A stretch of 64,000 nucleotides of DNA from positions 806,001-870,000 of the forward strand of contig CM020620.1 in assembly GCA_009829735.1 (NCBI GenBank), read 5' to 3'. The notes beneath the pieces were generated by a model. That model made no database searches, was not told the origin of the DNA, and saw only the letters and a program-made list of their open reading frames with translations. Origin of the DNA: Pyropia yezoensis (Eukaryota; Rhodophyta; Bangiophyceae; Bangiales; Bangiaceae). Position numbers and translations under genes: made by a program. Positions 4,325-49,208 of the stretch are shown piece after piece (position 1 is the stretch's first letter; each line of letters begins with the position of its first letter).

Positions 4325-6380
4325 AGGTTTTCGTCCGGCCCTCGGGGAGGCGGCCTCGCCCCCAGGCGCCAGGGAGCGGAAGGCCCCGACCGGCGGGAAG
4401 GACCCTGCCGCCGGTCGGAAGGACCCCGCCTGGCCAGCGGGCCGCCCGTACGCGGCGACCCGCCGGGCCATCAAGGCGTGGCGGTCCCTCGGGGCCTCAC
4501 GGTGGGTGATCGAAGCCATCCTCCGTGGGGTGCAGATCCCCTGGCGCCAGCAGCCACCCCGGTACCGCAGCCGGGGCTACCTGCTGGGCCCAGAGGACGA
4601 CGCGTGGGCGGGAGAGGAGCTGGAGCGCTGGCTGGCGGCCACTACCTAGCTGTCGCCGGCGGAGGCGGGGGCGGCGCACTGCATCGTCGGCGCCTTTGTG
4701 ACTCACAGCGCTGGCAAGCCACGGCTGGTGGTGGACTACCGGCACCCGAACGCCCACATGGAACGCCGCCGCTCCAAGTACGAGACGCTCGCGGAGCTGG
4801 CCCCGGGGCTCCGCCCGGGGGACCACATGATCTCGTGGGACATCGCGGATGCGTTCCACCATCTCCGCATCCGGAGCGAGGACCAGACCTACCTGTGCTT
4901 CCGGCTGCAGGGGCGCGTCTTCGCCCCGCTGTCCATGCCGTTCGGGCTGGCGATCGCCCCCTTCACGTGGACGAAGGTCTGCCGACCGGTCGTGGCCAAG
5001 CTGCGGGAGATGGGCTTCGTCATAGCAGCGTACGTCGACGACTTTGGGGGCCGCCCGCCCGTGGCGAGGGCGGGCACCCCGGCGACCAAAGCGGACGCGG
5101 TGGCAGGCTGGCAGGCTGCGGCCCGCCTGCTGGCAACGCTGGGCCTGCGCATGAACCAGCGCAAGGGAATCCGCGACGGGACGACGGCGCTGCCCCTGTT
5201 GGGGCATGTAGTCGATACGGAGCTGGGCGTCTTCCGCCTGCAGCCGCAGCGCGTGAAGAAGATAGAGACGATGGCGGCGGCCCTGCTGAGCTACGCGGCC
5301 AAGCACCGCCGGTGGGTGCGGTTCGGCACCCTACGGTCGTTCTGCGGGACGGCGGTGTCAACTACCCTCTCCGTGCCGCAAGCCCGCTATCGCACCCAGG
5401 CCCTGTTCACCTTGATGGGACCTGGGATGCGGGAGCGGCCAGCCGGCCGCGCGCGCGGCCGCGACGTGCGTCTCTCGCACCAAGGCCTCGCCGACCTACG
5501 TTGGTGGGCCCGGCTGACGTCCCACCATCTGCTCGGCCGAGCGCTGTGGCCCCGCCCAGACGACGCGGTGCTACACACCGACGCCAGCTTGACGGGCTGG
5601 GGCGCGGTGTGGAATGGCACGGTGCCCGCCCGGGGGTTCCACGCCCCGGAGCGGCGGCGCCTGCATATCAACGTGCACGAGCTCGGCACGGTGCGCCTGG
5701 CGCTCTAGTCTTTTGTGGCTCTCCTGCGGACCGAGGCGGACACGATCGTCCGCTTGATGATGGACTCCCTCGTCGGCGTCCACGTTATCAACAACGGGAC
5801 GTCCCGATCGGCGGCTTTAATGCAGGAGCTGCGCTTCCTGCACGCGTGGTGCGCCAGGCACGGGGTGCACCTACGGGCGTCCCACGTGCCGTCGGCGGTC
5901 AAGTTCGCGGCCGACCGCCTGTCGCGGATGGCGGACAGCACGGACTGGTCCCTGTCGGACGCGGCCTTCCGCCGCCTGGATGCGGCGTACGGCCCCCACA
6001 CCCTGGACCTGTTTGCCTCCAGCATCAACCGCAAGTGAGGTCGGTACGTCTCGGCGTCGGCGGACCCGGGGACAGCGGGCGTGGACGCCCTGTCCCACGA
6101 CTGGACGGGCGACAACTGCTGGGCGAACCCTCCGTTCCAGCTGATGGGGTCGGTGGTCGACAAGATCTTGAGGACGGGGGCACGGGTGACCCTGGTTGCC
6201 CCCATCTGGCGGGCGCAGCCGTGGTGGCAGCGGGCGGTGGAGGGCTGCCAGCGCTGGGAGGAGCTCCCGGCGCACGAGGGGGTGTTTATTCACGGGAGCC
6301 GGTCGACGCCGGCCCCCGTTCCCAAGTGGCGGGTGGCCGTCTTCCGCTTCGACGGGCGAGGCACCCCGTTCCCCGCCTAG
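4325..6380 (+). pseudogene. DIRS-type reverse transcriptase / RNase H / methyltransferase-like region with three in-frame stops
   Basis: A single frame encodes an N-terminal RT block (AIKAWRSLGASRWVIEAIL), KPRLVVDYRHPN, ISWDIADAFHHLRI and MPFGLAIAPFTWTKV, then the catalytic YVDD at 5028-5039, which identifies reverse transcriptase. RNase H follows (DDAVLHTDASLTGWGAVW). Next comes the DIRS-characteristic block VDALSHDWTGDNCWANPPFQ, whose NPPF is the N6-adenine methyltransferase signature. The frame is broken by TAG at 4647-4649, TAG at 5706-5708 (inside RNase H) and TGA at 6036-6038 (just after NRK), before the terminal TAG at 6378. No ATG is usefully placed. Other genes here end normally in TAG, so recoding is unlikely and decay is the simpler reading. 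The end overlaps the recombinase frame. Confidence 0.85.
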
Positions 6381-7391
6381 AGCGCTGGCGTCTCCTCTTC
6401 GACGGCATCCTGTCCGACCGCCTGGGCAGCGGCCTCGGTGCGGTCGAGGGCGGCCGCCTGCTCGAGGCGGCGTGCCAGCCGCGTACCGCCCGCAGCTACG
6501 TCAACGGCTGGGAGCGCTTTGTCGCCTTCTGTCGGGAGGCGGCCCTTTGCCCCCTGCCGGCCGCCCCCGAGACGATCGTGCGGTACCTGGGCACCATCCG
6601 CCGCCAGGGCACCGTCGCCGCGGGGTCCCAGGGCACCTACCTGTCGCCCATCGCGGCCCTTCACGCGCTGGCCGGCTACCCCTCCCCGAAGCGGGATGCT
6701 TTGGTCAAGAGTGCCAAGCGCGGCTACCGCCGCGAGTTCACGGCGGCAGCCGGGGGCCTGCGGCTGAAGCGCGGCCCCCTCCCGGCGGCGGCCGTGTCCC
6801 GTTTCCTCGAGCTCTGGCCCGGAGCGCCGCCGGACCTTCGCCACGCCATCGCGGGCGTGGCGCTGGCCTACACCCTCTTCAACTGCCCGGGGGCGGCGTC
6901 CCACATGCGTGCGTGTGACATCTTCCCGACGGCGCGGGGCCTGGAGATTCAGATCCCCGACTTCAAGATGGGGGTGCTAAAAGATGCCGAGCGGATCGCC
7001 TACATGGTGCCGGTCGCGCCCGGCGGCTGGACGGCTGACTGCGTGCTGCCGCTGCTGCGCGAGCACTGGCGGGCGCACCGCGCCGCCGGCCGGCCGGCCG
7101 CCGAACGGCTCTTCGCTCCGCCCGGCCGACGCGCCCCCCTACCGCTCAAGATCGTCAATGTGTGGATGCGGGACCTCCTGCGCCGCTGCCGCGTGCGCCC
7201 CCCACTGGGGACCAAGTGGTCGGGGCACTCGCCCCGCGCCGGCGCGGCGTCGGAGGCCCACGCCCTGGGGCTGAGCGACGCCCTCATTCTCCAGCTGATG
7301 GGCATCACGGACGTCAAGACCGCCTACCGCCACTACATCGACGCCACCTGGGCGCCGACGGCGGCAGCCTGGGATTGGTTTGGGCGCTACG
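6365..7391 (+). pseudogene. DIRS-type tyrosine recombinase, 5' part, cut by the chromovirus
   Basis: This frame encodes an N-terminal SAM-like segment (ARSYVNGWERFVAFCREAAL) and a catalytic domain with the H-x-x-R box HSPRAGAASEAHALGL and the nucleophile region ITDVKTAYRHYIDATW. The His, second Arg and Tyr are all present. Such recombinases insert the circular cDNA of DIRS-order elements in place of a DDE integrase. The frame continues to WFGRY and is then interrupted at 7391 by the 5' LTR. It resumes in the same frame after the 3' LTR at 17618 and ends at TGA 17782-17784, inside B1/A2. Apart from the insertion, the recombinase shows no stop. Confidence 0.85.
7387..7391. repeat. 5-bp target-site duplication, left copy (CTACG)
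   Basis: It is identical to 17613-17617. Removing the element and one copy restores a continuous recombinase frame. Confidence 0.9.
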
Positions 7392-7930
7392 TGTGGGAGA
7401 TTGGGCCGGAATTCGGTACCAATACTTTGGAGATTCGAGTCAAGTGGACATGACCGGAAGTCGAAATTCACCCTACCCACGATGGTGAAACTTCTGACTT
7501 CTGGACGGAAACTCGACTAGGACTTCCGACATACTAGAGCAGGGTAATGCTGCTGGTATTTGTTTCCTGGGATTTTTGCACGGGAGCCAGACGGATTTCT
7601 ACGCTTTGAGTGCTTTGCATGTGGAGTGATATGATTGGTTTGTTTGAGGGTTCATTTTCTGAGTGTTTTGAGGGGTTGCGTGAGCGTGTGAGGAGGGTTG
7701 ATAAGGAGGGACAGCAAGGCGGGGAGGGCCCACCTTGGCTGGCCGAGCAAGTAAACACCGTCTGGCTCCGACACATCTTGCTCGTGCCTTGGTGAGCTGA
7801 CCCGTTCACCACACGCAAGTTCCGTGTTCGGCTGTGTGGAGGTGCTTGCTTCCGGTGTCCCAAGTTGGGATATCGGCAATACTCCTCTTCCTTCCCTGAC
7901 TCGGGGTTGGTGGTTGGGAGTACTGCTACA
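7392..7930 (+). repeat. 5' LTR of the chromovirus
   Basis: 539 bp, TG...CA termini, matching 17074-17612. By eye the two differ at about five positions, clustered near the 5' end plus two C/T changes. Confidence 0.95.
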
Positions 7931-7932
7931 GT

Positions 7933-7950
7933 TGGTGGATCAGCGGGGGA
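7933..7950 (+). promoter_or_regulatory. candidate tRNA primer-binding site
   Basis: Two bases after the LTR the sequence reads TGGTGGATCAGCG. It starts with the TGG expected from a tRNA CCA end. The priming tRNA is not identified. Confidence 0.4.
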
Positions 7951-8247
7951 GAGGATATCGACTTTGGTACCTCCCTTGACCGGAGACGGGACCAAGTTGG
8001 CCCCTCTCCCCCTTCGGCACCGAGACTTCCGGTGACACGATCGACTCGCCTACGTTCCGAGCGTTCGCTGGGTGACGAGGTTGGCCACCGTGAGTCTTGG
8101 TGGGAGACCCGGAGTTTCGGGAAACCTCACCGCCTTCCTTGAGGCAGGTGGAGAGGTGGAACGTGCTCTAGGAACTCCCTAGCTGACGATCCCCGACTCT
8201 GGACACCGTTTGGTCGTTTTGGTTGACTCCACGTGACTCTTGTGGAG
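7951..8247 (+). other. chromovirus leader between PBS and gag
   Basis: About 300 bases of untranslated leader. No hairpin or ORF of note was recognised; the packaging signal would be expected here. Confidence 0.4.
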
Positions 8248-10011
8248 ATGGCTGGTGAGGGAGACCCCCCCATTGCGCCGAGTGTACCTGGGAAGGGGGA
8301 GCGTAGTCCTCCCCCGACGGGCGGAGTACCACCCAGGCCGGGCAGTGCGGATGTGGTGGGTCCAGAGGTTGGACCCCGACGGCGGTCGGCCAGGTTCCTT
8401 CCCAGGCCGTCCCCGGAAGAGACGGGCGGAGTTCGCCCTTCTCCGGTGGGAGCGCCGAGCCAGCGTCAGGCTCCGGCAACCTCTTCGGGGAGTGACGACA
8501 CTCACTTCGGCATGGGACCGCCGACCGGCAGAGGTGACGGGACGGGGAGTTCCGTACCCCGGGTTGGTGGGTCCGCGCCACGACTGGTGCCGGAAGGACC
8601 GGGTGGGAGCTCGAGTCAAGCTCCACCTGGGTCATCCGGTATCGTGGATGACTCGGTGATGACTGTCATCGCACAAGTCGTGCGAGAGGAGGTGGGGAAG
8701 GCGTTGAAGGGGAACACCCCTCCGCCTGAGCAGGCCTCGAGGCGTCAGAAGCGACGGGAGATTAGACGTACTCTCCGTCGTGAGGTGGACTCAGAGTCTG
8801 AGTCCTCTGCAAGTGGCAAGTCGGGTGAAGAGGATCTTACCCGACGTGGTCGTGTGACTCACACGGACCGTCTTGGGACTAGAGTCGTCCCAGGAAAGAT
8901 AGTGGTGAATAATCCATTGTTCAAGGATGTCTTCGACTGTGAGACATATGGGTTGGTCAACAAGTCGTTGACCTACTCGAATAGTCAGGCCCGTACCCTG
9001 GGCCGGCGCAAGAAACACGTTGCGCAATCCTTCGGGGTCCGTTCAGAATGGGACGGGACACCACCCCTGAAGGTCTTCCAGTTTTTGCGGAAGTTCGCAA
9101 AAGCCTGCGATGACAATGATGTCTCTGAAGCTGAAGCGTTTTTCATGCTTCAGGACTTCACCAAGGAGCCACTCCGCTCCGAGGTGATGAACGTCATGCC
9201 AAGTCGGCATGGTGGGAATCCGGGTGAGGTGACCTCCTACCTGGAGTTGGTTAAGTGGATCCTTCGTCTTCACGCAGACGAGGCTTCCTTGGCTGTGCAG
9301 GTTGAAGAGTTCAACCGCGCCACCCAGAGTAAGGGTGAAGAGGAACGGGAGTTCGCTGAACGACTCCGTCAGCTGAACGTCCTCTGTGGATTCCTATATC
9401 CCCAAGGAGTCATTAAGGGACGCTTTGTGGAGGGTGTCCACCGAGCAGCTCGAGCGACTGTGCGAGAGCGTAATACTCCGACCATGACTCTGGCGGAGTT
9501 GGCACGCATCGCCCAGACTAAGGGTGATGAGTACCGCTGGCTCGTGTCTGAGCAGCGGAAGGAACGAGAGAAAGAAGCTAAGGGAGTGGAAGCAAGTCGC
9601 TTCCGCAGAACTGCAAGGGTGCCTTCCTACACGCGGACGTACCCTGCAGTACCTTCGTCCTCAACTCGAGAGACGGAAGGTATGGTGGCCGCCATCCCTG
9701 ATAGGTCACAGGGAAAAGCGGGGCCATCGGCGTCAATGAGTGATCGGCCGTGTTGGCAGTGTTCCAAGTCGGGACACTGGGCAGCCCAATGCCCCACTCT
9801 GGACGTTCGACTGAGAGCCCTCTTGGCTCGTATTGGGAAGCTCGGTATTCCGAGGACTGATTCGGATACCCGGCCGCGCACCACACGGGTACCGTCCATG
9901 ACTCAACCTAAGTCAGAGGATGAGTCCACGCTTGAGAAGGGGGAAACCTCTTCCCCCAGCTCAAGTGGCAAGGATACTCCATCATCCGAGTCGGATGAGG
10001 GAAACGCCTAG
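8248..10011 (+). CDS. gag: chromovirus Gag polyprotein
   Basis: 587 residues from ATG 8248 (context GGAGATGG) to TAG 10009-10011. An upstream in-frame GTG at 8233 is less likely. The N-terminal 150 residues are Pro/Ser/Gly-rich. An Arg-rich stretch precedes a retrotransposon capsid-like domain at roughly residues 270-410 (FLRKFAKACDDNDVSEAEAF, EFAERLRQLNVLCGF). A CCHC zinc knuckle, C-WQ-C-SKSG-H-WAAQ-C, lies at about residues 502-515 and binds the RNA genome. The tail is Ser/Glu-rich. Gag builds the virus-like particle. The last codons include slippery G_GGA_AAC two codons before the stop, and the pol frame is open through this point, so Gag-Pol is probably made by -1 frameshifting. Confidence 0.93.
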   Translation: MAGEGDPPIAPSVPGKGERSPPPTGGVPPRPGSADVVGPEVGPRRRSARFLPRPSPEETGGVRPSPVGAPSQRQAPATSSGSDDTHFGMGPPTGRGDGTGSSVPRVGGSAPRLVPEGPGGSSSQAPPGSSGIVDDSVMTVIAQVVREEVGKALKGNTPPPEQASRRQKRREIRRTLRREVDSESESSASGKSGEEDLTRRGRVTHTDRLGTRVVPGKIVVNNPLFKDVFDCETYGLVNKSLTYSNSQARTLGRRKKHVAQSFGVRSEWDGTPPLKVFQFLRKFAKACDDNDVSEAEAFFMLQDFTKEPLRSEVMNVMPSRHGGNPGEVTSYLELVKWILRLHADEASLAVQVEEFNRATQSKGEEEREFAERLRQLNVLCGFLYPQGVIKGRFVEGVHRAARATVRERNTPTMTLAELARIAQTKGDEYRWLVSEQRKEREKEAKGVEASRFRRTARVPSYTRTYPAVPSSSTRETEGMVAAIPDRSQGKAGPSASMSDRPCWQCSKSGHWAAQCPTLDVRLRALLARIGKLGIPRTDSDTRPRTTRVPSMTQPKSEDESTLEKGETSSPSSSGKDTPSSESDEGNA

Positions 10012-10047
10012 CCGCTGGGACTAAGAATGACCCAAAGGCTCCAGCGG
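9999..10047 (+). promoter_or_regulatory. candidate -1 ribosomal frameshift signal between gag and pol
   Basis: Slippery heptamer GGGAAAC (9999-10005) is in the gag frame as G_GGA_AAC. After a 6-base spacer that includes the gag stop, CCGCTGG (10012-10018) can pair perfectly with CCAGCGG (10041-10047). A -1 slip enters the pol frame, open from here to the pol ATG at 10050. Heptamer, spacer length and GC-rich stem all fit canonical -1 frameshifting; GGGAAAC is a known functional slippery site in some plant RNA viruses. Confidence 0.7.
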
Positions 10048-10049
10048 TA

Positions 10050-13000
10050 ATGAAGCGGGTTGCTTCACACTCACCGACCCATGGGAGAGTGAAGGTCCTG
10101 ACTCGACCTCGAGGGGTGAGGCCTAGAGACAAGGTCCCTCCTCAGAAGCACGACCCGAGTCGGATTGTGTCAGTGCTGGTAGGGAGTAACTACCAGGTCG
10201 CAGCTCGACTCTGGCTGCAGGATGGATATGAGTTTACCTCTCGTGTCATAGTCGACACAGGCTCTGCTGCCTCTCTCATTAGGCAAGACTTATTGCCAGA
10301 GGGGACAGATGTGAGTCCCGCCGGCTCACCCGAGTGGCGTATGTTTGATGTCAATGGGGGACTCCTCCCCATTGTTGGATCTATTGCATTGACTGTTTGC
10401 ATTGGGTTCTACCAGACGCAGGTGAACTTTGGAGTAGTCTCCAATATGTCAGTCCCCGTACTCCTGGGAACTGACTATCTGGACCTCCATGTCCCGGCCG
10501 TCTGTGGACCGGAAGGGGTAATCCGAATGCGTAATGGAGAGACTGTCCCCATATTGCGTAAAGGGAGGACTGTTTCCCCTACGACTCATCAACCTAGGGA
10601 AAACTCTCCCAAGGTTGGAGGCTCTACGACTCATGTACGAGTATGTAAGGGTACTGCAGTCCCGCCCCGATCAAGGACCTTTGTGCGAGTACGCACACGG
10701 TTTCGAGGGAATGGACTCGTTTCCCCCGTGGACCGAGTCTATCATACTCACCAAGTGCAAGTTGCATGGGGCCCCATGACTTGTGGGGATGACCAAACTT
10801 GGTGGGTGGAGGTCCTCAACACGTCGGAGGAACCTCGACGACTCCCCGGAGGCATGAAGATTGCGTCGATCTCTACCTTTGAGGGGAATGTCGTTGCTGT
10901 GACTCAACAGCAATGGAAGGATATTGGAACGGCAGGCTCTGCCGACCAATCGAGTTCATCGACGGCTAAGTCGCCGACGGTACATCGGGAGAACATCCCG
11001 GAGTGTTTACATGGACGACTGGATGAGTTAATCCAGAAGCATTACAATTTGTGGAATGGTGACCTTGGGCTCATCAAGGCCACCGAACACAGAATCGTGT
11101 TGAAGCCAGGGGCTAGGCCAGTTCGCCTGAGTCCCTACCGTATGGGACCAGACTCACGGGAACTCACCCGAGAGCAGGTCCAACGGATGCAAGACATGGG
11201 TGTCCTTGAGCCTTGCTCAAGTGAGTGGGCCAGTCCCATAGTCTTGGTGCCCAAGTCAGACGGCACGATGCGGATCTGCATCGATTATCGTAAGCTAAAC
11301 GAGCGGATGGTAAGGGATAGTTACCCCTTACCCCGTATGGACGATTGCCTCGACTCACTCGGTGAGGCACAGTACTTTTCCACGTTGGACTGCAACGCGG
11401 GGTACTGGCAGATACCCATCCGCAAGGAGGACAGACACTTGACCACCTTCACTTGTCACTGTGGAGTTTATCAGTGTACACGGCTCCCTTTCGGGCTTTG
11501 CAATGCACCTGCGACTTTCCAGCGTGCTATTGACTTGATACTTGCCGGAGTCAAGTGGCAGATCGCCCTGGTGTATCTGGACGATATCATTGTGTTCTCC
11601 GGGACTGCCGAAGAACACCTGTCCCACTTGGACAGAGTGTTTACCCTGTTCGGTGAAGCAGGAGTAACACTCAAACCTACGAAGTGTCACCTCTTTAGTA
11701 ATGAGGTGGAGTACCTCGGCCATATAGTCCGGCCAGGTCGCATTCTGGTCAATGAGAAGAACCTCATGGCCATCCGTCGGGCGAAGTTCCCCCAGACGCA
11801 GACACAACTCAGGAGCTTCCTGGGTATGTGTAACGTATACAGACGCTTTGTGGCGAACTATGCCAAAGTGTCTGCACCGTTGAACCACTTGGTAAGTTCC
11901 AAGATGCCCAAGCGCTTGGATGCTCCCAAGCCCCCGGAGCAAGAAGCGTTTGATAGGTTGCGAGAACTCCTTTGCAACCCACCGGTGTTAGCGATCCCCA
12001 GACCGGGGGCTCACTACATTGTTGATGTGGACGCAAGTTACGACCAACTTGGTTGTTGCTTACTCCAACAACAGCCTTCGGGGGAGTATTTACCCGTTGG
12101 CTACTTCAGCAAAGGACTCTCACCGGCCCAGAAGAACTATTCTGTGACGGAGGTAGAGGGCCTTGGCGTAGTATGGGCAGTCTCCATGCTACGGCCATAC
12201 ATCGAAGGAAGGAAGTTCCTCATTCGATGTGACCACAAGGCTTTGAAGTGGATACTCACCACTACAGCCTGTACGAATAACCGACTCAATCGATGGCGAC
12301 TCTGCCTCGCTGAGTTCGATTATGACGTTGAATATCGGCCAGGCCCGAAGCATGCGGTTGCGGACGCGTTGTCTCGCATTGGGAAAGACTCTTCCCCCAT
12401 CCCTGAGGAACTCCCTCATGTGGCAGTGACCACTCGCTCAGGAACTGTCCTCGACCCGAGGATGCCTGGCATGGCCAAGCTATTACCCGTGTCTCTGGCT
12501 GAGTTTGTCCAGGCACAGGAGAGCGACAAACTTTGTCGACGACTCAGGAAGGAGCTCGACCAGGCTCAACCGACTCGGCTCTTCCTGAATGACAACGGCA
12601 TACTCTGCCGTAAGGGATATACCCAGGGGGACAAGCAAGTCGTCGTCCCCAAGGAGTTACGCAAGAGTATCCTTCAACGGGAGCACTCCTCACCGTTGGG
12701 TGGACACCCAGGGTCTACGAGGATGTATCAGACCCTACGCAAGAAGTACTATTGGCCATCACTCGTGGCTGATGTGTACGGGTATGTAGCCGCATGCGCG
12801 ACTTGCGCAAAGAATAGACTCATGGAGTCCCGGCAGACTTCTTCCATGAGACTCTTTCCTGCAACAGAGCCGTTTGCAGCGATAGCAGTGGACTTACTCG
12901 GTCCACTACCACGAACACCTGAAGGATATGAGTACCTTCTGGTGATGTGTGATCGCTTTACTAAGCTCACACGGGTATCCCCGCTCAAGGATATCACAGC

Positions 13001-14030
13001 CGTGGACGTTCTGAGTGAGTTACTCGACGTCTGGGTTGCCAGTTATGGCATCCCCGACTCTATCCTTTCGGATAACGGACCACAGTTTGCGTCCGTCCTG
13101 TATCAGGGAGTCATGAAGATGTTGGGGGTGCAGACGAATTTCGCAACCCCTTACCACCCCCAGACTAATGGGCAGGTGGAACGATTCAACAGGACTCTAG
13201 TGCGCCAGTTGCGTCACTATGTCCATGACCATGTAGTCACATGGGCTCGTTATGCGTCACTACTCGTGACAGCATACAACTCCCAGGTACACAGTAGTAC
13301 GGGAGAGGCACCGTTTGCCTTCGTCTGCCCCCGACGACTTCCGTCAGTAGCTGTGGAGCGTCTCACCCAGACAGAGGGTGAGACTTCGACTCAAACACCG
13401 AGTCAGGCGAAAGCCTCCCTACTCCAGAGACTGGAGGAGATGATACCCCTTGTCCGGGCTACTATGGAGAAGGCCCAAGCTCGTTACAAGAGGTACTTCG
13501 ATGTCCGAGTCAGACATCGTCGCGATCCGCTCCGAGTTGGAGATTGGATTTATGTCAACTCCCACGACAATAAGGGAGGGAAATTGGTCTTCAAAACTCT
13601 GGGACCATGTCACATCCTTAAGACGGATGGACGGCGGTTAACCATCGAGAGTGATGATGGTATCCGGACGATAAATGGGAATCACGCGACTCGCGCACCC
13701 GAACCCCCAGAGGGAGATCCCGCTTGGGAAAGGGCCTTGCAAGCATGGAAAGTCCCATCCTTGCCGACCTCCTCCAATAAATCGTTGGAGGCGGTGTTCG
13801 ACAAGTTTGTCGGACACGGGTACGATGAGTCGGGGCGACTCATGCTCCGAGTCAGGTGGTTCGGGTATGGACCAACTTCCGACACATGGGAGTTTGTAGA
13901 GGACCTACCAGTAGAGAGGGTCCGTAGATACTGCCAGGCTGCGGGCATATCTATACGCCGACGTAGCACTCGTACGTCGGGGGATGAAGTCCCTGCTCCA
14001 AGTCAGAGCAGAGCGGCAAGCCAACCATGA
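10050..14030 (+). CDS. pol: chromovirus Pol: protease, RT, RNase H, integrase, chromodomain
   Basis: 1326 residues from ATG 10050 to TGA 14028-14030, in the -1 frame relative to gag and probably fused to it. Approximate domains: aspartic protease with DTG at residues 69-71; reverse transcriptase with YLDD at 509-512; RNase H with VDVDAS near 660 and ADALSRI near 770; integrase HHCC zinc finger at 878-920; DDE core with Asp 948 (VDLLGPLP), Asp about 1008 (SDNGPQFAS) and Glu about 1044 (VERFNRTL), the D,D-35-E spacing. A basic GP(F/Y)-like module follows (KTLGPCHI). The C-terminal chromodomain spans about 1248-1300 (LMLRVRWFGYGPTSDTWEF). Chromodomains of chromoviruses bind modified histone tails and direct insertion to heterochromatin. 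No stop or frameshift was seen. Confidence 0.95.
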   Translation: MKRVASHSPTHGRVKVLTRPRGVRPRDKVPPQKHDPSRIVSVLVGSNYQVAARLWLQDGYEFTSRVIVDTGSAASLIRQDLLPEGTDVSPAGSPEWRMFDVNGGLLPIVGSIALTVCIGFYQTQVNFGVVSNMSVPVLLGTDYLDLHVPAVCGPEGVIRMRNGETVPILRKGRTVSPTTHQPRENSPKVGGSTTHVRVCKGTAVPPRSRTFVRVRTRFRGNGLVSPVDRVYHTHQVQVAWGPMTCGDDQTWWVEVLNTSEEPRRLPGGMKIASISTFEGNVVAVTQQQWKDIGTAGSADQSSSSTAKSPTVHRENIPECLHGRLDELIQKHYNLWNGDLGLIKATEHRIVLKPGARPVRLSPYRMGPDSRELTREQVQRMQDMGVLEPCSSEWASPIVLVPKSDGTMRICIDYRKLNERMVRDSYPLPRMDDCLDSLGEAQYFSTLDCNAGYWQIPIRKEDRHLTTFTCHCGVYQCTRLPFGLCNAPATFQRAIDLILAGVKWQIALVYLDDIIVFSGTAEEHLSHLDRVFTLFGEAGVTLKPTKCHLFSNEVEYLGHIVRPGRILVNEKNLMAIRRAKFPQTQTQLRSFLGMCNVYRRFVANYAKVSAPLNHLVSSKMPKRLDAPKPPEQEAFDRLRELLCNPPVLAIPRPGAHYIVDVDASYDQLGCCLLQQQPSGEYLPVGYFSKGLSPAQKNYSVTEVEGLGVVWAVSMLRPYIEGRKFLIRCDHKALKWILTTTACTNNRLNRWRLCLAEFDYDVEYRPGPKHAVADALSRIGKDSSPIPEELPHVAVTTRSGTVLDPRMPGMAKLLPVSLAEFVQAQESDKLCRRLRKELDQAQPTRLFLNDNGILCRKGYTQGDKQVVVPKELRKSILQREHSSPLGGHPGSTRMYQTLRKKYYWPSLVADVYGYVAACATCAKNRLMESRQTSSMRLFPATEPFAAIAVDLLGPLPRTPEGYEYLLVMCDRFTKLTRVSPLKDITAVDVLSELLDVWVASYGIPDSILSDNGPQFASVLYQGVMKMLGVQTNFATPYHPQTNGQVERFNRTLVRQLRHYVHDHVVTWARYASLLVTAYNSQVHSSTGEAPFAFVCPRRLPSVAVERLTQTEGETSTQTPSQAKASLLQRLEEMIPLVRATMEKAQARYKRYFDVRVRHRRDPLRVGDWIYVNSHDNKGGKLVFKTLGPCHILKTDGRRLTIESDDGIRTINGNHATRAPEPPEGDPAWERALQAWKVPSLPTSSNKSLEAVFDKFVGHGYDESGRLMLRVRWFGYGPTSDTWEFVEDLPVERVRRYCQAAGISIRRRSTRTSGDEVPAPSQSRAASQP

Positions 14031-14158
14031 GTACAAACGCATACCATGGTTCTTCAAAGATTCTCTACTAACAAAGCCGACTATGGCACAATACAAAACG
14101 AGAAGAACACACACCACTCTTCTCGCCAAGAAAAGAACAAGTCGTTCGACCGCTGACT

Positions 14159-15766
14159 CTAGCGTTCCGTATGCCCACCCCCACCACTATAGGGACCGCC
14201 CGACCACGAACCCCCAGGGTCGTAGGCCGGTAGCGGAGGGGCGTAACCCACTCGGGAAGGCCCCGGAGTGGAAGCACTGGGAGGGGCCCGCCGACTCGCG
14301 GACCCATCCCCGTCGTAAGAAAGATGTCCGGAGGTACTCCCTCCGTGACGCGGAAGCTGCTGCTGAGTCGACAGCAGCCGTTGGACAAACTCGTGTCCAA
14401 CCGCGAGGCGAGTGACCTCAGCTGCCAATGACTGTCGCGCCGTGGCTGAGTCGCCCGACGCGAGGAAGTGACTGACACGCCGGGTGACCCAAGCCAACGT
14501 GTCAAGGGAGGCCACGAGTGAGGCCTCCACCGTGGCGTCATACATGATGGCTCCCAAGTTGGGAAGCATCTCGCCGACGCCACGCGCAATCGGCATCGGG
14601 ACCGGAGTTCGGACCCGTAGCGAGCCCAACGCCACGTCGGGGAAGGGTTCGAGGAACTGGAAGGGTGGAGCCTGAGTCGGCTCCACACCCCCCGAGGTCG
14701 GAGTCGCGACCCGCGGGGAAGACGTCGGCACAGCTCGCCCGCGGCTTCGAGGGGCTCCTCGATGAGCACCACGACGAGTCGTCGCCGATGACGTCGCCCA
14801 CCCAGAGCCAGGGGGCGACGTAGAGGGAGTAACCCCCTCCGCGGAGGGAAGGGAAGGGTCCCCCAACCCCTCACGCAGGAGCAGCTGCCCCTGCACCAGA
14901 GTATGGGTGACATGGACGAACTCCCGGGGTGGCTCACTCTCCAACCCCGGCTCTGAACGCTTGTTGCGGCGGAGGAAGGGGTCCAGCTGCGCCCAATCGA
15001 GTCGATTGTGCAGGGTGACCATACCCTTGAGGAGGAACGGAGCCAGGTCCCCCGCGCCCAAGGCTAACCAGTGGAAGCCAAGGGTTTCCATACCCTCCAC
15101 CAGAGCCGGTGGGAGGTGCCACAGGTAACCCCGATGGACTACATCGGAGTACCAGCCCCGAGCCACCACGACCACCCAGTGCGTGGCGAGGTAGAAGAAG
15201 ACCCGGTTGCCCTCCGAGCTGGAGCGTAGCACGGAGCCAAAGTAGGCAACGAGGAGGGGGATCCGAGCCGGAAACCCACGAGGTACCTCCACTGTCTCGC
15301 ACCACCCTGGGAGAAGAGGGTACTGGTGCTCACGCTCCTCCAGAGGTACGTGGGTGAACTCCACCCGCGACCCGTGGATGAGGAAGCCCGAGGAGCCCCG
15401 TAGTCGGAACTCCTCTCGCACCACACCGTGTTGGGCGTGGGCGTCCTCTCCGCCCAGGTAGGGACGAGGAAGGGCACACCACTCGGTAGACACCACCGCG
15501 TGGGTGTCGTCGATCTCCACGTCGCCCGACCCCATGGCGAGGAAGGTTGACAACGCCTGGACTTCAGGCGCGTCCGCCAGGCAGAGTAGCGCTGGTAGGT
15601 CGCAGACCACCCCATCAGGTAGAGTCACCTGGTTGGGGTACCGACGAGTCCGGCGGTACCATACGTCGGTCCGCCGTGGCTCGGGGATGATCAAGTAGAC
15701 ATCCTTGAGCTTGCAGTCGGGAAGCTCCCCGACTGACTTGGGAGGCGCCCAGGCTCGGGACCCCAT
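14159..15766 (-). CDS. antisense ORF of the chromovirus, function unknown
   Basis: 535 residues from ATG 15764-15766 to TAG 14159-14161, on the strand opposite gag-pol, between pol and the 3' LTR. The frame stays open upstream to about 15990 without another ATG. A different-frame ATG at 16065 (MAGEPSRPLSPSPTSLSDKR) opens a Ser/Pro/Arg-rich stretch that could join by a frameshift or an intron. The middle looks like a folded globular domain: KDVYLIIPEPRRTDVWYRRT, LPDGVVCDLPALLCLADA, FFYLATHWVVVVARGWYSDV, and a hydrophobic helix around LGAGDLAPFLLKGMVTLHNR. The last 200 residues are Pro/Ser/Gly-rich. I recognise no family; it is not an envelope (no clear signal peptide or transmembrane anchor). 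Antisense ORFs in this place are known in some plant gypsy elements such as Grande and RIRE2. Confidence 0.75.
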   Translation of the reverse strand: MGSRAWAPPKSVGELPDCKLKDVYLIIPEPRRTDVWYRRTRRYPNQVTLPDGVVCDLPALLCLADAPEVQALSTFLAMGSGDVEIDDTHAVVSTEWCALPRPYLGGEDAHAQHGVVREEFRLRGSSGFLIHGSRVEFTHVPLEEREHQYPLLPGWCETVEVPRGFPARIPLLVAYFGSVLRSSSEGNRVFFYLATHWVVVVARGWYSDVVHRGYLWHLPPALVEGMETLGFHWLALGAGDLAPFLLKGMVTLHNRLDWAQLDPFLRRNKRSEPGLESEPPREFVHVTHTLVQGQLLLREGLGDPSLPSAEGVTPSTSPPGSGWATSSATTRRGAHRGAPRSRGRAVPTSSPRVATPTSGGVEPTQAPPFQFLEPFPDVALGSLRVRTPVPMPIARGVGEMLPNLGAIMYDATVEASLVASLDTLAWVTRRVSHFLASGDSATARQSLAAEVTRLAVGHEFVQRLLSTQQQLPRHGGSTSGHLSYDGDGSASRRAPPSASTPGPSRVGYAPPLPAYDPGGSWSGGPYSGGGGHTER

Positions 15767-16065
15767 AGGAGGACGGGGCCGCGGCGGGAGTAGCAGCCGC
15801 GACTCAGGAAGGCGGGGGATGGGAGTCACATCCCCTTCCGCCACCGGGTTGGAAGACCCATCCCCCGGTGGGACCAAAGCCGAGGGGGCAGTAGGAGGTG
15901 ATGGAGCGAGGCGGCCGCCTCCGACCCTCGCCCGGGACGAGTCGTCTCCATGGCCGACCCCCGGCTGAGAGACTCCTCAGTCCCGAGGGCCTCCTCTCCC
16001 GCCCGTCGCTTGTCCGACAGAGACGTCGGAGACGGGGACAAAGGCCGACTCGGCTCACCCGCCAT

Positions 16066-17060
16066 CTTGAATAACCTTGACCAACTCGGTGAGGTTGAGC
16101 ACGGGAGGGGGATACGACCCGCTCCCCCTCCTTGACCGCCACCAGGTTAACTCAACCTGGGCCTTGAACAACAGGGGGGGACACGACCCACACCCCCCAA
16201 CGACAACAAAGAAGCCCGACACAAGGGGCAGCGCGGGGAAAACACAACCCCGCCGACGAAGAGCAACAAGGGGGGGACACAACCCACGCCCCCACCGACA
16301 ACGAAGACGCCCGACACAGGGGCAGGGAGGGGGAAGGCACCACCCCAAGCGGCGACACAAACCGCACGGCGGGAAGAGACAGACCCGCCGACGCGAAGGA
16401 GCAGCGGCGGGAAGACACACACCCGCCCGCACACACGAAGGGGAGAGAAGACCCCGCACCGGCGGCCGAGTACCACCGCCGGCGACCGAGTGCAACACCC
16501 CCAACTCGGGGTGCGCACACCCCTCAACCCTGACTAGAAGGGGGGGGGGAAAGAGTGAAGAACACCCCGCAGAGAGCCAGCTGGGGGTGGATCGAGCTCT
16601 AAGGGGGGGACACAACCCGACCCCTCGAGAGCAACCGTACCCCAACTGAAGGGGCAGGTGCAGGTCGACGTTCCGAGTGAGAACGTCGACGCCCTACTCC
16701 TCCAGTTGAGGGGCAGGGGGTGTGGCGGAGGAACGCCGACACCCAGGTTAGGGGGCCCACCCACACGGGAGTCCACCCGTGGAGCACCCTGACCAGGTGG
16801 GGGACGACTTTCCCCCCACACCTGTTTCGCGTGGAGGGGGCTCCTCTACCCAGGTTAGGGCAGAGAGCGCACCCCACGGAGAGGGACTGCCTCTCCCGGA
16901 GGGCCCCGCCGGACGCGAGTGCAACCCCGGCGTAACCCTGGTGCACGCTAGACGCCAGCGATGCACCGTACTTTGCATCCCGACTCGGGAATTGCATCCT
17001 CCTCTCCCGGTCACGGCGACTCGCAGCTGATTGGACGTCCACCGGGACGGCTGGACTTTT
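16066..17060. repeat. chromovirus 3' spacer with recurrent G-run motifs and a hairpin
   Basis: Non-coding region between the antisense ORF and the polypurine tract. A motif of five or more G followed by A(C/T)AC(A/G)ACCC recurs near 16106, 16174, 16270 and 16603. GTCGACGTTC (16664-16673) and GAACGTCGAC (16681-16690) form a perfect 10-bp hairpin. The open frames here are shadows of the repetitive composition. Confidence 0.55.
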
Positions 17061-17073
17061 GAGAAGGGGGAAA
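17061..17073 (+). promoter_or_regulatory. polypurine tract
   Basis: GAGAAGGGGGAAA immediately precedes the 3' LTR, the expected plus-strand primer site. Confidence 0.85.
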
Positions 17074-17612
17074 TGTGGGAGATTGGGCCGGAATTCGGTA
17101 CCAATACTTTGGAGATTCGGGTCAAGTGGACCTGACCGGAAGTCGAAATTCACCCGACCCACGATGGTGAAACTTCTGACTTCTGGACGGAAACTCGACT
17201 AGGACTTCCGACATACTAGAGCAGGGTAATGCTGCTGGTATTTGTTTCTTGGGATTTTTGCACGGGAGCCAGACGGATTTCTACGCTTTGAGTGCTTTGC
17301 ATGTGGAGTGATATGATTGGTTTGTTTGAGGGTTCATTTTCTGAGTGTTTTGAGGGGTTGCGTGAGCGTGTGAGGAGGGTTGATAAGGAGGGACAGCAAG
17401 GCGGGGAGGGCCCACCTTGGCTGGCCGAGCAAGTAAACACCGTCTGGCTCCGACACATCTTGTTCGTGCCTTGGTGAGCTGACCCGTTCACCACACGCAA
17501 GTTCCGTGTTCGGCTGTGTGGAGGTGCTTGCTTCCGGTGTCCCAAGTTGGGATATCGGCAATACTCCTCTTCCTTCCCTGACTCGGGGTTGGTGGTTGGG
17601 AGTACTGCTACA
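17074..17612 (+). repeat. 3' LTR of the chromovirus
   Basis: 539 bp copy of 7392-7930, TG...CA, followed by target duplication CTACG (17613-17617). Confidence 0.95.
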
Positions 17613-41855: not shown

Positions 41856-43357
41856 TACCACCCCCGCCGCCGCCACCGCTGCTGCCACTACCACGGCCAC
41901 GACGGCCACCGGCGGCACGCCGCGTGGGAGCGGCGGTCGCAGCGGCGGCGGCCGCTGCCAGGTGCGCCGCCGGCGGTGGCAGGATGCCCTCCCCCCCCCC
42001 GTGGCCACAGTAGAGCAGCACATCAGGCGGGGCGGCGGTGGTGGTGGCGGCGGCGGCGGGGGCGGTGGGAGCGGGTGCCCCCTCCCCCCCCCCCGACCGG
42101 GGGCATAGGACTTCGAGCGGCAGCGGCGGCGCGGGCGGCGGTGGCACGCCCACCACCCCCACCCACCCGTCCTGGCGGGCGCAGAGGGGCCCAAACGCGG
42201 CGGCGGTGGCGGGCAGGTCCCCCCCCGGGTCCAGCACGTACGCCACCGACGCGGGGTCCACCACCCCCCACGGCACCACCGCCGCCGCCGCCGCCGCGGC
42301 CGCCGCCGCCGCCGTCGTCGTCGACGGGTCGTTGCTGCACGGCGGTGGGGGCAAGCCGCCGCCGCCGCCACCACCGCCGCCGACACCGCCGCCGCCGCCG
42401 CCGCCGCCGCTGGCGCAGCCGGCGGCCGCCGCACCGGCGACGCGGGGCACCCGGCCACGGGGGAGGAGGAGGAGCGACGGGGAGGGCAGCCGCGCGACGG
42501 GCACGGCGGGGGTGGCGAGCGCCGGGAGGGCCTCCCACGGGAAAGCCTCGAGGGCAGGGTCCAGCGCCAGCAGCACCGCCGCCGCCGCCGCCGCCGGCGG
42601 TGACGGTGGCGGCAACGGCGGCGGCGACGGCAGCGGCGGCGGCGGCCGTGCGGGCGCCGCGGCGGCCGGCGACGCGCTGCCGCCGGCGGCGCCCCCCCCC
42701 CCGCGGCGGCGGGACGCCCGTCGGCGTGCCGCCGGCGTTGCCGTCACCGCCGCCGCTGCCGCCGCCGCCGCCTCCCCCACCGTCGGTGGCGTCGTTGCCG
42801 CCGCCCGCGGGGGTGCCCCCCCCCCCCCTGCCGGCGGCAGGGCAAAGAGCCAGGCGGGGACCCCCCCCCCCAGCCACGCCCCCTCCACCGCCCCGGCCAG
42901 CCGCCCCAGCGCCGCGTCGAGCGCGGAGCGGCGCGCCCACCAGGCCGCCCGGTCGGCGTCGGTGGCGGCCGAGGCGCGAAAGGCGGCCGTCGCGGCGGCG
43001 GCGGCAGCGGCAATCGCCGCCAGCGCCGCCGCCACGCCCGCCACCGACAGGTCGGGGGGTCCGCCCCCGCCCCCGTCGGCGGCGGCGCCCGCAGCCGCTG
43101 CCGCCGCCGGCACCCCCTTCTCCCCCTGGGAGGGGGATGGGGATGGGGGGGGGCGGGGGGACGGCAGCCGCTGGCGTGCCAGCCGCGGCGGCTCCCCGCG
43201 GGCCACCCGCCAGGCGTAGAGGTAGGCCCGGCGGGGGCACAGCGTCAGCCCCGCCACCGCCGCGCCGCCGGGCAGGGCGGCGGTGACGGCGGCGAGCCGC
43301 GCCGCCGCCACCCCACCGCCCGCCGCGGGCGGCGCGGCCGCCAGCGCACCCCAACCC

Positions 43358-43398
<41 letters not shown>

Positions 43399-46300
43399 CG
43401 CCCGTGCCGCCGCCGCCCCCACCACCGCCGCCGCGCGGAGGTCGTAGGAGCAGCCGGCGGCGGCAATGGCGGCGGCCACCCCCGCCGCCCCCGCCGCCGA
43501 CCCGGCCGCCCCGCCCGCCACCGCCACCACCGCCGCGGCGGCGGCGCGGACCAGCGGGGGGGGGACCACCCCCCCGCCCCCGCCACCACCGCCGCACCCG
43601 CCGCCGCCGCCGCCGCCGGGGGCACCCCCGCCGCCCGCCAACGCTGCGGCCATGGCGGCGGCCGCCCACCGGCGGGCGGCGGCCACGTCGGCGCCCCCCA
43701 TCACGCCGTCGACGCCCCCGGGGCGGCCACCGCCGCCGCCGCCGTCTGTGCTGTGGGCGGCGGCGCTGCCGCCGCCGCGGCGGCGCGCCGCCGACCCCCC
43801 ATCCCCCCCCCCCCGCGTCAAGCGGGTGGGCACGGCCCGCGGGGCGGCGGCGGCACCTCCCTCCCCGCCTCCTCCATCTTCACCGGGGGAGCGGGAGGGG
43901 GGTGCCCAGAGGGCGTCCACCGCCGCCGCCGGCAGCCGCGCCGCCGCCACCGCCGCCGCCGCCACCAGCAGCGCCGCCGTGCCCGCTAGGTCGGCCGCCA
44001 CCGCCGCCGCCGCCGCCGCCGCGCCCCCACCGTCACCGCCGCCCCCGCCATCGTCGTTGCCGCCCAGGGCGGCGGCGGCGGCGGCGGCATCGGCATCGCC
44101 GAGCACCACCGCCGCCGCGGCAGCCGCGTCGGGCCACCACGGCGCCATGGCCGCCGCCGCCGCCGCCGCCTCCCCCCCCTCCCCCGCACCCTCCGCCTCC
44201 CCCGGCATTACCCGCAACTGCGCGGTGGCCTCCCCCACCGCCGCCGCCCGCCGGAGGCGGCGGGCGAGCGCCGCGTCCATCCCCCCCCCCCCGCCGCCGC
44301 CCACCGCCGCGGCGGCGCGGCGGTAGAGCGCCGCCGCCGCCGCGGGCGCCCCCGCCGCCCACAGCAGCCCGTCGGCAGCGGCGATCGCGGCGGCCGACGC
44401 GGCGGCGCCGCGGGCCCCCGCCGGCGCCGCTACCCCCGCCGCCGCCACCGCGCGGGCCACCGCCGCCGCCGTCGGCCGCCGCGGGGGGGGGGTGGGAGCG
44501 GTGCCCCCCGCGGGCCGCCCCGCCGCCGCTGTCGCTGTCGCCGCCACCGCGGACCGCCGGCGGTGCCGCCGGCGGCTGGCGGCGAGGGGGGGGGAGAGGA
44601 GCCCCATGGCACGGACAGGAGCGAGCGGGGAGGCACAGCCGCCTTCCCCCCCCCCCCCCCCTCCCCAAGCGCCAGCTCCCCCCGCCCCCACCCCCCACTG
44701 TCCACCCCACCACCGTCACCGTCACCGTCACCGTCACCGTCACCACCAACGTCCACAACCAGCGCCGCAACGAGCGCACGGGCGGCAGCGGCCACCCCCC
44801 CCCCCCCCCCCGCGGCGGCCGCCAACGCAGCCGCCGCCCGCCCATAGTACCGCGCGTCGGCCACCGCGTCGGCGGCGGCGGCGCGCGTCGCCGCCCCCAC
44901 CAGCGCGTCGGCGGCAGCCAGCAGCGCCGCCGTGTGGGCGGTCGCGGTGGCAAGGCCGCACCCGCTCCCGCCGCACCCGCCGCCGCTGCCACCCCCCGAC
45001 AGCGGCGGCGGCGGCGGCCGCACCGGCACGTCAATGCGGCCAATGCGGAGGTGGGTTCCCCCGCGGCGGCCGCCGCCGCCGCCACCGTCGCCGCCGGCAG
45101 GGTCACCATCCTCGGCGGGGGTGGCGCCCGCCGCGACCAGCGCGGCCTTGACCGCCGCAGTTGCCGCCGCCGCAGCGGCGGCGGCGCCGCCCGTTGCGGC
45201 CGCCACGGCCGCCGCCGCGGCGGCCGCCGCCGCGGGCGGGGTGCCCCCGTCCCCCGCCGCAGCCGCCGCCGCCGCCGCCCAGTCGGCGCGGTCAACCGCC
45301 AGGCGCGCGGCGGCGGCCGCCACGGGCGGTGGCAGCGGCGGCGGCTGGCCACGGCGGCCGCCCCCCCCGCCGCCCTCCCCACTGCCGGCCGTCGCCGTTG
45401 CCGTTGCCGTCGCCGTCGCCGCCGCCACCGCCGCGGCGGCGGCGGCCCAGTCCCCCTCCCGCCGCGCCGCGTCTGCGGCCGCCGCGGCGGCGGCGGCCGC
45501 CACGTCGCCGGCGGGGGGGGCGGCGGGGAGGGGTGGGCACCCGGCGGGTGCCGCCGCCGCCGCCGTGGCGGCGGCCGCCGCGGCCAAGACGGCCCGCGCG
45601 GCGCCGTCGGCGCCGCGCGTCGCGGATAAGAGGGTGCCCACGGCGGTGGCGGCCGCGGCCGCCTCGGCGGCGGCCACCACCGCCGCCGGCGGCACCACCG
45701 CCCCGGGGAGGATACCCTGACGGAGAGGGGGGACAGCCCTGTCAATGGCGGCGGCCAGGTCGGCCGCCGCCGCTGCCACCACCGCCGCCGCCGCTGCGGC
45801 CGCACCCGGGGCGGCGGTGGTGGTGGTGGAGAGGGCGTCGTCGTCGGCGCCGGTCTCGTTGTCGTGGTCGACCGCGTCGGCCGCGGCGGCGGCGGCGGCG
45901 TCGGCGGGCACCACCGCCGTCGCGCGGGCGGCGGTCCACCCGGCGGCGGCGGTCCACGCGGCGGCCACCGACCGCACCAGCGCGGCCACCTCCCCCGTCG
46001 ACCCCCCTCGCCTGCCGTCGGCGGCCCCCTCCCCGGTGGCCAGCGCCAGGCACCGGTCGACGGCGGCGGCGGCGGCCGCAACGGGCGCCGCTCCGCCGCC
46101 CGCCGTCACCGCACCACGGAGGGCGGGCAGGCGCGACGCGGCCGCCTCGACGGCCGCCGCCTCGGCCGCCGCCGCCACCGCAGCGGCGGTCGCCGCCACC
46201 CCCCCGGCGGCCACGTCGTTGTCGTCCCCGTCCCCTTGGCCACGAAACGCAGCGGCCGCCGCTTCGGCAGCGTCCGCCACCGCCGCCGCCACCGCCGCGT

Positions 46301-46640
46301 CGGCGGCGGCCAGCACCGCCGCCCGACGGCGGGAGAGGCCACCCCCGCCCCCGCCGCGGGAGCGGCGGGCGGCGGCAGCGGCGGCGGCCGCCGCGACCGC
46401 CCCCCGCACCGCCCGCAGCAGCGCCACGCGGGTCGGCGGCGCGGCCGATGCCCTTGCCGGCGACCACCCTAGGAGGGGAGGTGCGGCAGGGGAGGAGGCC
46501 GCCGCGCCCGTGGTGGGGGGCGCCCGCGCGGGGAGGAGGTCGACGAGCGCGTCGCCGCCCGCGGCGGCCAGCCAGCCCCGCACCAAGCCCGGCGGGTGGC
46601 CGCCGACAGCCGCCGCCGTGGCGTCGACGGCGGCGACCAG

Positions 46641-46673
<33 letters not shown>

Positions 46674-47816
46674 GGCGCCGGCGCCGGCGGCGGCGCCGGC
46701 CGACGCCCCCCACCCGCCGTCATCGTCGCTGTCGTCCCCGTCGTCGTGCTCCGCGGCGGCAGCCGCGGCCGCAGCGGCGGCGGCAGTGGCGGCGAGCGCC
46801 CGGCCGAGCGCGTCGGCGGCGGCCGCGTCGGCACCCCCCGCCGCAATGGCAAGGACCGCCGCCCGCAGCGCCGCGGCGGCGGCGGCCGCCTCCTCCTCCA
46901 CCGCAGCCGCCGCCGCTGCCGCCCCCATGGCGTCCGACAGGGCCTCCCCCCCGTCGCCGGCGCCGCCATCGTGGGTGCCGTCACTCGTACACGGGCTCCC
47001 CCCGCCGCCCTCCCGGCCACCCCCAGCCGCCGCGGCGCCCCCGCGGTCGGCGGCCGCCGCGGCGGCCGCCGCCCAGGCGGCACTGCAAAACGCGGCGCGG
47101 GCGCCCAGCGGCGGGGGGGGGCCACCCCCCGCCCCCGCGGCGGTGCCCCCCCCACCGCTGCCAAGGGCCGCCCACCCGAGGCCCCGCTGCACCACCTCCG
47201 CCGCGAGGGCGTAGGGGCAGCCGCCGCCGCCGTCGCCGCCGCCGCCACCAAGGTGTCGGCGGCTGCCACCCCCACCCCCGCCGGCCAGGGCGCCGTTGAA
47301 GAGCGTGACGCCCACATTGTGGAGCACCCCCGCCGCCCACGCGGCGTATGGCCCCACGCCGCCATCACCGCCGCCGGCGCCACCACCACCACCACCACCG
47401 CCACCACCGTCACCACCCCCGTCAACGCCGCGATTGGCGCCATCGGTGGCGGCGGCCGCCGCCACCCCCGACACCACCACCGCCCGCACGCCGTCGGCCA
47501 CCCCCGCCACCGCCGCGGTCACCGCCGAGGCGGCCGCGTCCACCGACCCCATCCCGCCCTTGCCGTCGCAGCCGTCGCCGCAGCCGCTGTCACCGCAGCC
47601 GCCGTCGACGTTATCTGCCATGCCGCCACCGCCAGCTGCGGCCATGGCCGCCGCCGCCGACGTGGCGGCCGCCGCCGCCACCGCCCGGAGGCACTCGAGG
47701 CCCGCCCCCACCGCGGCGGCCAGGCGGGGCTCGGCAGGCGTGCCGCCGCAGAGGCCCCCCACCACCGCGTCCGCGACCGCCGCCGCCACCGAGTGCGCGT
47801 CGGGGTCGCTCCCGCC

Positions 47817-47847
<31 letters not shown>

Positions 47848-48022
47848 ACCGAGCGGTGGGGGCGGGCGGGTGGGACCTTGGCGGTAAGCGCCGCGACGGC
47901 ATCCCGCCTGAGGGGCTCCACCACCCGCACCACCCGCAGGGCATAGGCGCCACGCCGCGCGGGGGGCACCGACCCGACGCGGGGGAGCGCCGCCAGGGCG
48001 GCATTGACGCCACCACCACCAC

Positions 48023-48056
<34 letters not shown>

Positions 48057-48959
48057 CCCCCCCCGCGCCGCCACGCCGCCCACCCAGCCGACGCCCGCCC
48101 GCGCGGCGGCGACCGCCGCCGCCGCCGCCAGTTCCGGCCGCCCCCCCCCCGCGACGGCGACCGCCCACCACTGCCACACACCCCGGCCGGCGGACCGCCG
48201 GCCGCCCCGCACCGCCGCGGCGGCGGCAGCGTCCACCCACGCCGCTAGCGGCTCGCCGGCCGCCACCACCGCGGCGGCCTCTGCATCGGCGGCGGGGGGG
48301 GGGGTTGTGGGCGACCCGCCCTCGCTCGTCCCTGCGGGCGGCTGCTGTGGCGGCAGCAGCTGCTGCTGCTGCGCCTGCTGCTGCCGGTAGGCCGCCACGC
48401 TGCGGACGGCAGCCGCCGCCACCGCCGACGCCGCCGCGTCCTGGTTTTGGCCGCGACCGCGCCGTCGTCGGCTGCCGCCCCCCCCCGCCACCGACGGCGC
48501 CACCGTCAGCGCAGACGCGGCGGACCGGAGGGTGCGGGCGGCGTCGGCGGCCCAGGCGGCGCCGTCCGCCACCACCCCACAGTCCCGCCCCGCGATTTCC
48601 GCGGCCAGCAGCCGCGCCGCCGCCGCCACCGCCGCGGCGGTGGCGGCGGCCGACGGCGGCCGTCCCGCCGTCCCGCCGCCGCCGCCGCCCTCCCCACGGG
48701 CCACCCCCAGGATGGCCCGCCGGATGCGCCGGGCGGTGGCCGCCGCCGCCGGGCGGTGGCCCCCCGCGGCGGCGGCGGCGCGGACAAACGGGATGGCCGC
48801 CGCCGCGGCGGTGGCGACCAGCTGCCCCGGGGGGGTGCCGGGGGGAGGGCACGCCAGGTGGGCGGCGAGGAGCTCCGCCGCCGCCGCGGCGGAGGGCGGG
48901 TGGCCGCACACGGCGCAAGTGCAGGGGGGGGGGGGGGGGGGGAGGGCCGCCGCCATGTC

Positions 48960-48993
<34 letters not shown>

Positions 48994-49164
48994 GTAATGG
49001 TGGTGGGAAGGGGGGGGAAGGAGGGGGGGAGGAGCGACACGCGCCGCACGCGGGAGGTCAGGGCCGTCACCCCGCCGTCGCTGCCGCCGCTGCCCGCGTC
49101 GTCGGCGGTCGGGGCGTCGCCGTCGCTGTCGCCGCCGCCGCCGTCGCCAATGTCGCCGTCCTCC

Positions 49165-49208
<44 letters not shown>

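Follow-up and report, generated by a model that had tools for sequence, protein, structure and literature searches.

An antisense gene under purifying selection between pol and the 3' LTR of a Ty3/gypsy retrotransposon family in the red alga Pyropia yezoensis

A long open reading frame lies on the strand opposite gag-pol in a Ty3/gypsy retrotransposon of Pyropia yezoensis, and it is almost certainly protein-coding. The comparison of genomic copies shows, at the level of nucleotide variation, that this antisense frame stays open under purifying selection through rounds of transposition. Homologues recognised by similarity were shown to have the same antisense placement in two other groups, a sister element and a distant family with abundant copies. 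The analysis started from the window, i.e. the whole stretch of 64,000 nucleotides under study, and was extended to the 107.5-Mb assembly, whose large contigs measure 43.59, 34.33 and 29.39 Mb. The features of the element are collected in Table 1.

Table 1. Features of the window element and pol matches of the deletion form (positions in the window unless a contig is given)
Feature	Position	Strand	Remark
Ty3/gypsy element, 10.2 kb	7392-17612	+	Pyropia yezoensis window, C3:806001-870000
5' LTR, 539 nt, TG...CA	7392..7930	+	target-site copy CTACG directly outside
gag ORF with CCHC zinc knuckle	8233..10011	+	PF00098 E 7.1e-4, 20.0 bits against a cut-off of 20.8 (just under)
pol ORF: reverse transcriptase, RNase H, integrase, weak chromodomain match	10050..14030	+	ORF list and Pfam
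Antisense gene, portion still in frame in the window copy (572 codons and stop)	14159..15877	-
Antisense gene 5' end, from ATG at 16065	15878..16065	-	cut off from the remainder by a short deletion
Spacer from antisense ATG to 3' LTR, purine tract (PPT) at its end	16066..17073	-
3' LTR, 539 nt	17074..17612	+	target-site copy CTACG directly outside
Deletion-form pol copies, pol full-length	C2:2046340, C3:20630283, C2:23925986, C1:10972746, C2:32219604, C3:6135943, C2:25796993		190-nt spacing

The window element belongs to Ty3/gypsy by the order of its pol domains (reverse transcriptase, RNase H, integrase). Pfam places RVT_1 at residues 400-560, RNase H at 629-756, a zinc-binding domain at 866-923 and rve at 940-1037. 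A match to the PF00385 chromodomain follows at residues 1254-1286 (E 0.011, 16.1 bits), under the Pfam cut-off of 25.1. The two LTRs have TG...CA ends, differ at 5 of 539 positions and are flanked on both sides by CTACG. LTR retrotransposons are plentiful in the P. yezoensis genome, according to the accessible part of PMC7423979. The spacer upstream of the antisense ATG is a candidate location for the antisense promoter; BLAST revealed diverged self-similar blocks within it, and Tandem Repeats Finder detected no array between 14000 and 17700. Two observations concern the rest of the window. The final codons of a 991-codon ORF (4478-7453, + strand) extend into the 5' LTR at 7392, and the end of this ORF looks by eye like what we take to be a tyrosine recombinase, which suggests insertion of the chromovirus into another mobile element. 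The region 42001-50000 has a GC content of 83-86% over 8 kb, far higher than elsewhere in the window.

The portion of the antisense gene still in frame in the window copy is counted from a TTG and belongs to an open frame of 605 codons from stop to stop; from its first ATG it measures about 535 codons, which is the stop-free frame described in the earlier note. Coding on the sense strand of the same region (14159-16075) was rejected: each of the three sense frames contains 17 stops, and the longest open run is 120 codons. Frame length alone is weak evidence, because GC-rich DNA also yields such frames: when Markov sequences were modelled on 14031-17073, none of the 500 first-order sequences had a frame of at least 605 codons, against 15 of the 500 second-order ones. 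We regard the comparison of copies as the decisive sequence evidence for the antisense gene.

The genome search with the antisense protein, in which the best 76 of 2,412 first-look candidates were scored, returned at least 77 rows at 82-100% identity, one copy being spread over two rows. No internal stop is present in 65 of the 77 rows, frameshifts not being counted. The 49 copies aligned were taken from these 77 rows: the top 30, the 16 ranked after them, and the 3 near-full-length rows of lowest identity, a sample that favours good copies. The start codon at the position of 16065 is ATG in 48 of the 49 copies, the stop codon is TAG in 48, and an uninterrupted frame of about 638 codons links the two in 44. 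On this alignment, the ATG at 16065 is the true start of the frame. The window copy (L001) is among the five interrupted ones, and its short deletion is absent from the other 48. The earlier note had taken the upstream ATG to suggest a longer product made through a frameshift or an intron. The longer product is retained; a programmed frameshift or an intron in this copy was rejected as unnecessary, since most copies carry an intact single frame and the deletion occurs, among the 49, in the window copy alone. Counted per copy, 8 indels were found in the 1,914 columns of the ORF (in 3 copies, none a multiple of three), compared to 75 in 145 flank columns.

To estimate selection, variants were classed as changing or silent, with context-matched sites of the ORF itself as the reference. 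Variants present in at least two of the 49 copies comprise 40 changing and 60 silent ones, where 66.5 and 31.1 would be expected (omega 0.31). For the remaining two frames of the antisense strand, omega is 1.36 and 3.12, and for the three sense frames 1.24, 2.60 and 0.36; this last value comes from a frame that is closed by stops and has its third positions in common with the antisense frame. By codon position, the shared variants number 14 at position 2, 31 at position 1 and 55 at position 3, a ranking that a coding antisense frame would predict. When the diverged copies L048 and L049 are left out, 24 of 55 shared variants are changing, omega is again 0.31, and none of 20,000 permutations gave so few changing variants. 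Private variants have an omega of 0.56 in all 49 copies, and of 0.77, closer to neutral, without these two. Eight pairs of copies were tried: seven gave omega values of 0.23-0.38 (0.38 for L004-L048 and 0.23 for L004-L049) and one recent pair, L006-L039, gave 0.86. In the 13 copies with a full pol, the shared variants show an omega of 0.13 for pol versus 0.29 for the antisense gene, and the private variants 0.65 versus 0.64. The antisense gene is selected, less tightly than pol. The earlier note's claim that the env position of a chromovirus-type element harbours a real antisense protein gene is upheld both by frames free of stops in most other copies and by a dN/dS of shared variants that is not neutral.

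Relatives of the gene were searched with its two ends separately. The C-terminal piece gave 121 matches (123 of 123 candidates scored), with one clearly distinct relative at C1:3608380 (locus L050, 57% identity). This locus is a degenerate sister element: its antisense protein, which shares 47% identity over 614 aa and lies in a single frame interrupted by three stops, adjoins pol pieces with 53-69% identity to the pol of the window element. The comparison gives an omega of 0.38 for the antisense gene and of 0.18 and 0.24 for pol, rough values as dS is 1.0-1.3. The N-terminal piece uncovered the second, distant family at 27-34% identity (25 of 150 rows listed), to which the sister protein forms a bridge (31-36% identity, E down to 1.5e-14). 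Statements on the distant family rest on match coordinates and on one copy read as sequence, which is internally deleted and nested in locus L044. The antisense protein of this copy is 36% identical over 288 aa (E 3.5e-43); its pol, 60% identical to that of the window element, lies on the strand opposite the antisense gene. Among the 150 antisense and 150 integrase matches listed, 62 pairs are no more than 6 kb apart; the two partners are on opposite strands in every pair, and in 60 of them the integrase is found at a distance of 2-3 kb, on the side where it is expected. Of the 150 best antisense rows, which favour intact copies, 115 have an open frame of exactly 724 codons. Omega between the two families is 0.52 for the antisense gene and 0.13 for pol, values that are not relied on because silent sites are close to saturation. 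Relatives with 634-codon open frames at C1:778223, C1:42741795 and C1:27264294 perhaps represent a further subfamily; the first has an opposite-strand integrase at C1:780782. Within the window, 51441-51798 is 85% identical to L044 4474-4830, directly before the nested distant-family element, and is probably an LTR remnant of that family.

These comparisons bear on the reading of the frame as a chance opening in GC-rich DNA. The second-order model sequences that reach such a length would speak for it, as would the low omega of the sense frame with common third positions. Yet the silent bias is specific to the antisense frame, each sense frame is full of stops, indels are nearly all confined to the flank, and other families carry the same frame, at 47% and 36% identity, so that we find a chance origin hardly credible.

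The conceptual translation contains two hydrophobic-rich blocks, residues 111-385 and 471-560, amid P/S/G-rich stretches. Both blocks have conserved counterparts in the sister element, at 52% and 54% identity respectively, in line with the folded-protein composition seen in the earlier note. A stretch PxWWxxxExPxGFPA within the first block is common to the families. In the distant family the second block is represented by 27 aligned columns, where the L044 copy ends; the C-terminal piece missed this family. The sequence suggests the following layout: variable N-terminus, first block, linker, second block and tail. The location of the gene is that of env, which would suit an Env-like or cell-to-cell spread protein. 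Against this, the gene runs antisense to gag-pol in each of the two large families, and 19-residue hydropathy peaks at 1.38 in the window family and 1.23 in the distant one, values below the usual transmembrane threshold. The hydropathy scan of the protein detected no transmembrane-like segment and no hydrophobic or signal-like N-terminus. An Env identity was rejected on the grounds of strand and of the missing transmembrane-like segment, and a spread function of this kind appears very improbable to us. The term "env" of the earlier note is kept for the position between pol and the 3' LTR, as a label only, because no segment reaches the threshold.

No known family was recognised, in agreement with the earlier note. 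Pfam (three proteins scanned, E up to 10), NCBIfam, PHROGs (window protein) and PDB sequences (single protein and three-family profile) gave no match. A six-frame genome search for PF04195 (Transposase_28) at E up to 1, run without a positive control for the domain, gave none either. Searches of viral, bacterial and archaeal contigs yielded no relative; red-algal elements are not expected in such collections. A host gene captured by the ancestral element and now in element use would explain the gene-like size and the two-block make-up, but no clearly separate host homologue was found: the C-terminal search separated the sister element only, and in the N-terminal searches, where introns break six-frame matches, the best 150 candidates were scored. 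We consider such a capture rather improbable.

The association of the gene with pol bears on its mode of action. Both blocks are near pol in 26 of the 35 best pol copies, a few of them with altered spacing. In 7 copies, match coordinates indicate the same spacing of 190 nt, compared to 1,308, and the C-terminal piece is gone; one copy retains a displaced first block only, and one has neither block nearby. This deletion form has multiplied, so a copy does not require the full protein in cis, which leaves two readings: action in trans or dispensability. The protein could indeed be dispensable, given the multiplied deletion form.

Our preferred explanation is that the antisense gene is an accessory protein gene of a red-algal Ty3/gypsy (chromovirus-type) lineage, situated opposite gag-pol from pol to the 3' LTR. 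An antisense mRNA, starting in the 1-kb spacer or in the 3' LTR, would be translated into a soluble two-block protein, which may act in trans on the expression of the element itself or on its escape from silencing. The regulatory role is proposed by analogy; it parallels proposals for Grande gene23, the Retand Transposase_28 proteins and retroviral antisense proteins (PMC7264820; accessible part of PMC11963269). Taken whole, with its mechanism, we judge this explanation about evenly balanced between right and wrong. Trans action would equally account for the multiplied deletion form if the protein were a cofactor of the pre-integration complex or of target choice, travelling with the cDNA and aiding nuclear entry or integration without controlling expression. 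A nuclear role has been proposed for plant antisense genes, which were likened to retroviral accessory proteins (PMC7264820). However, simple patterns detected no simple basic nuclear-localisation motif in the antisense protein, and the product of a separate antisense RNA would need recruitment to particles; we see a cofactor as unlikely, while still worth bearing in mind. It has also been proposed that antisense transcripts themselves are functional (PMC7264820), for instance through double-stranded RNA control of the sense RNA, the protein being incidental. This does not predict selection that follows antisense codons, and as the main role it seems very doubtful, although both roles may coexist. 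The regulatory accessory protein is the reading retained below.

The gene can be compared with antisense genes of other LTR retrotransposons, which are described mainly from land plants and whose function is unsettled in the accessible part of the literature. No paper title reporting such a gene in a red-algal element was found in a search made mostly outside subscription papers and preprints. By its sequence, the red-algal gene answers to the descriptive class aORF-3R: opposite strand, between pol and 3' LTR, and conservation in most copies. The genomic arrangement is a known one, while the protein family is new. We tentatively see in it, with somewhat less than even confidence, an ancient red-algal class of antisense accessory genes, unrelated to Transposase_28, kept across families whose pol has drifted to 60% identity, with the protein provided in trans for deletion derivatives; on this reading, minus-strand regulatory genes of LTR elements would have had an independent origin here. 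A shared location and orientation, together with measurable selection and no detectable sequence relation, point to repeated evolution of a minus-strand gene by the 3' LTR. Since one small genome contains both numerous near-identical copies and a deletion form that has multiplied, the role of such genes is open to direct test by expression data and comparative genomics. The antisense genes of the Retand lineage (Transposase_28, PF04195), Grande gene23 and RIRE2 likewise lie antisense from pol to the 3' LTR, and they too are kept in most copies of a family and common to several families (PMC7264820; accessible part of PMC11963269). Unlike them, the present gene has no Transposase_28 match, a red-algal host and a chromovirus-type pol, Retand being non-chromovirus. 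The env-like ORFs of Athila, Bagy-2 and comparable plant elements are also located between pol and the 3' LTR (PMC7264820), whereas the red-algal gene is on the opposite strand and has no transmembrane-like segment. HTLV-1 HBZ and other retroviral antisense proteins similarly come from minus-strand genes close to the 3' LTR and regulate the virus from the nucleus, according to the accessible part of PMC11963269. The red-algal gene differs in having its own stretch between pol and LTR, and no homology is claimed. HBZ is also much smaller than the red-algal antisense protein.
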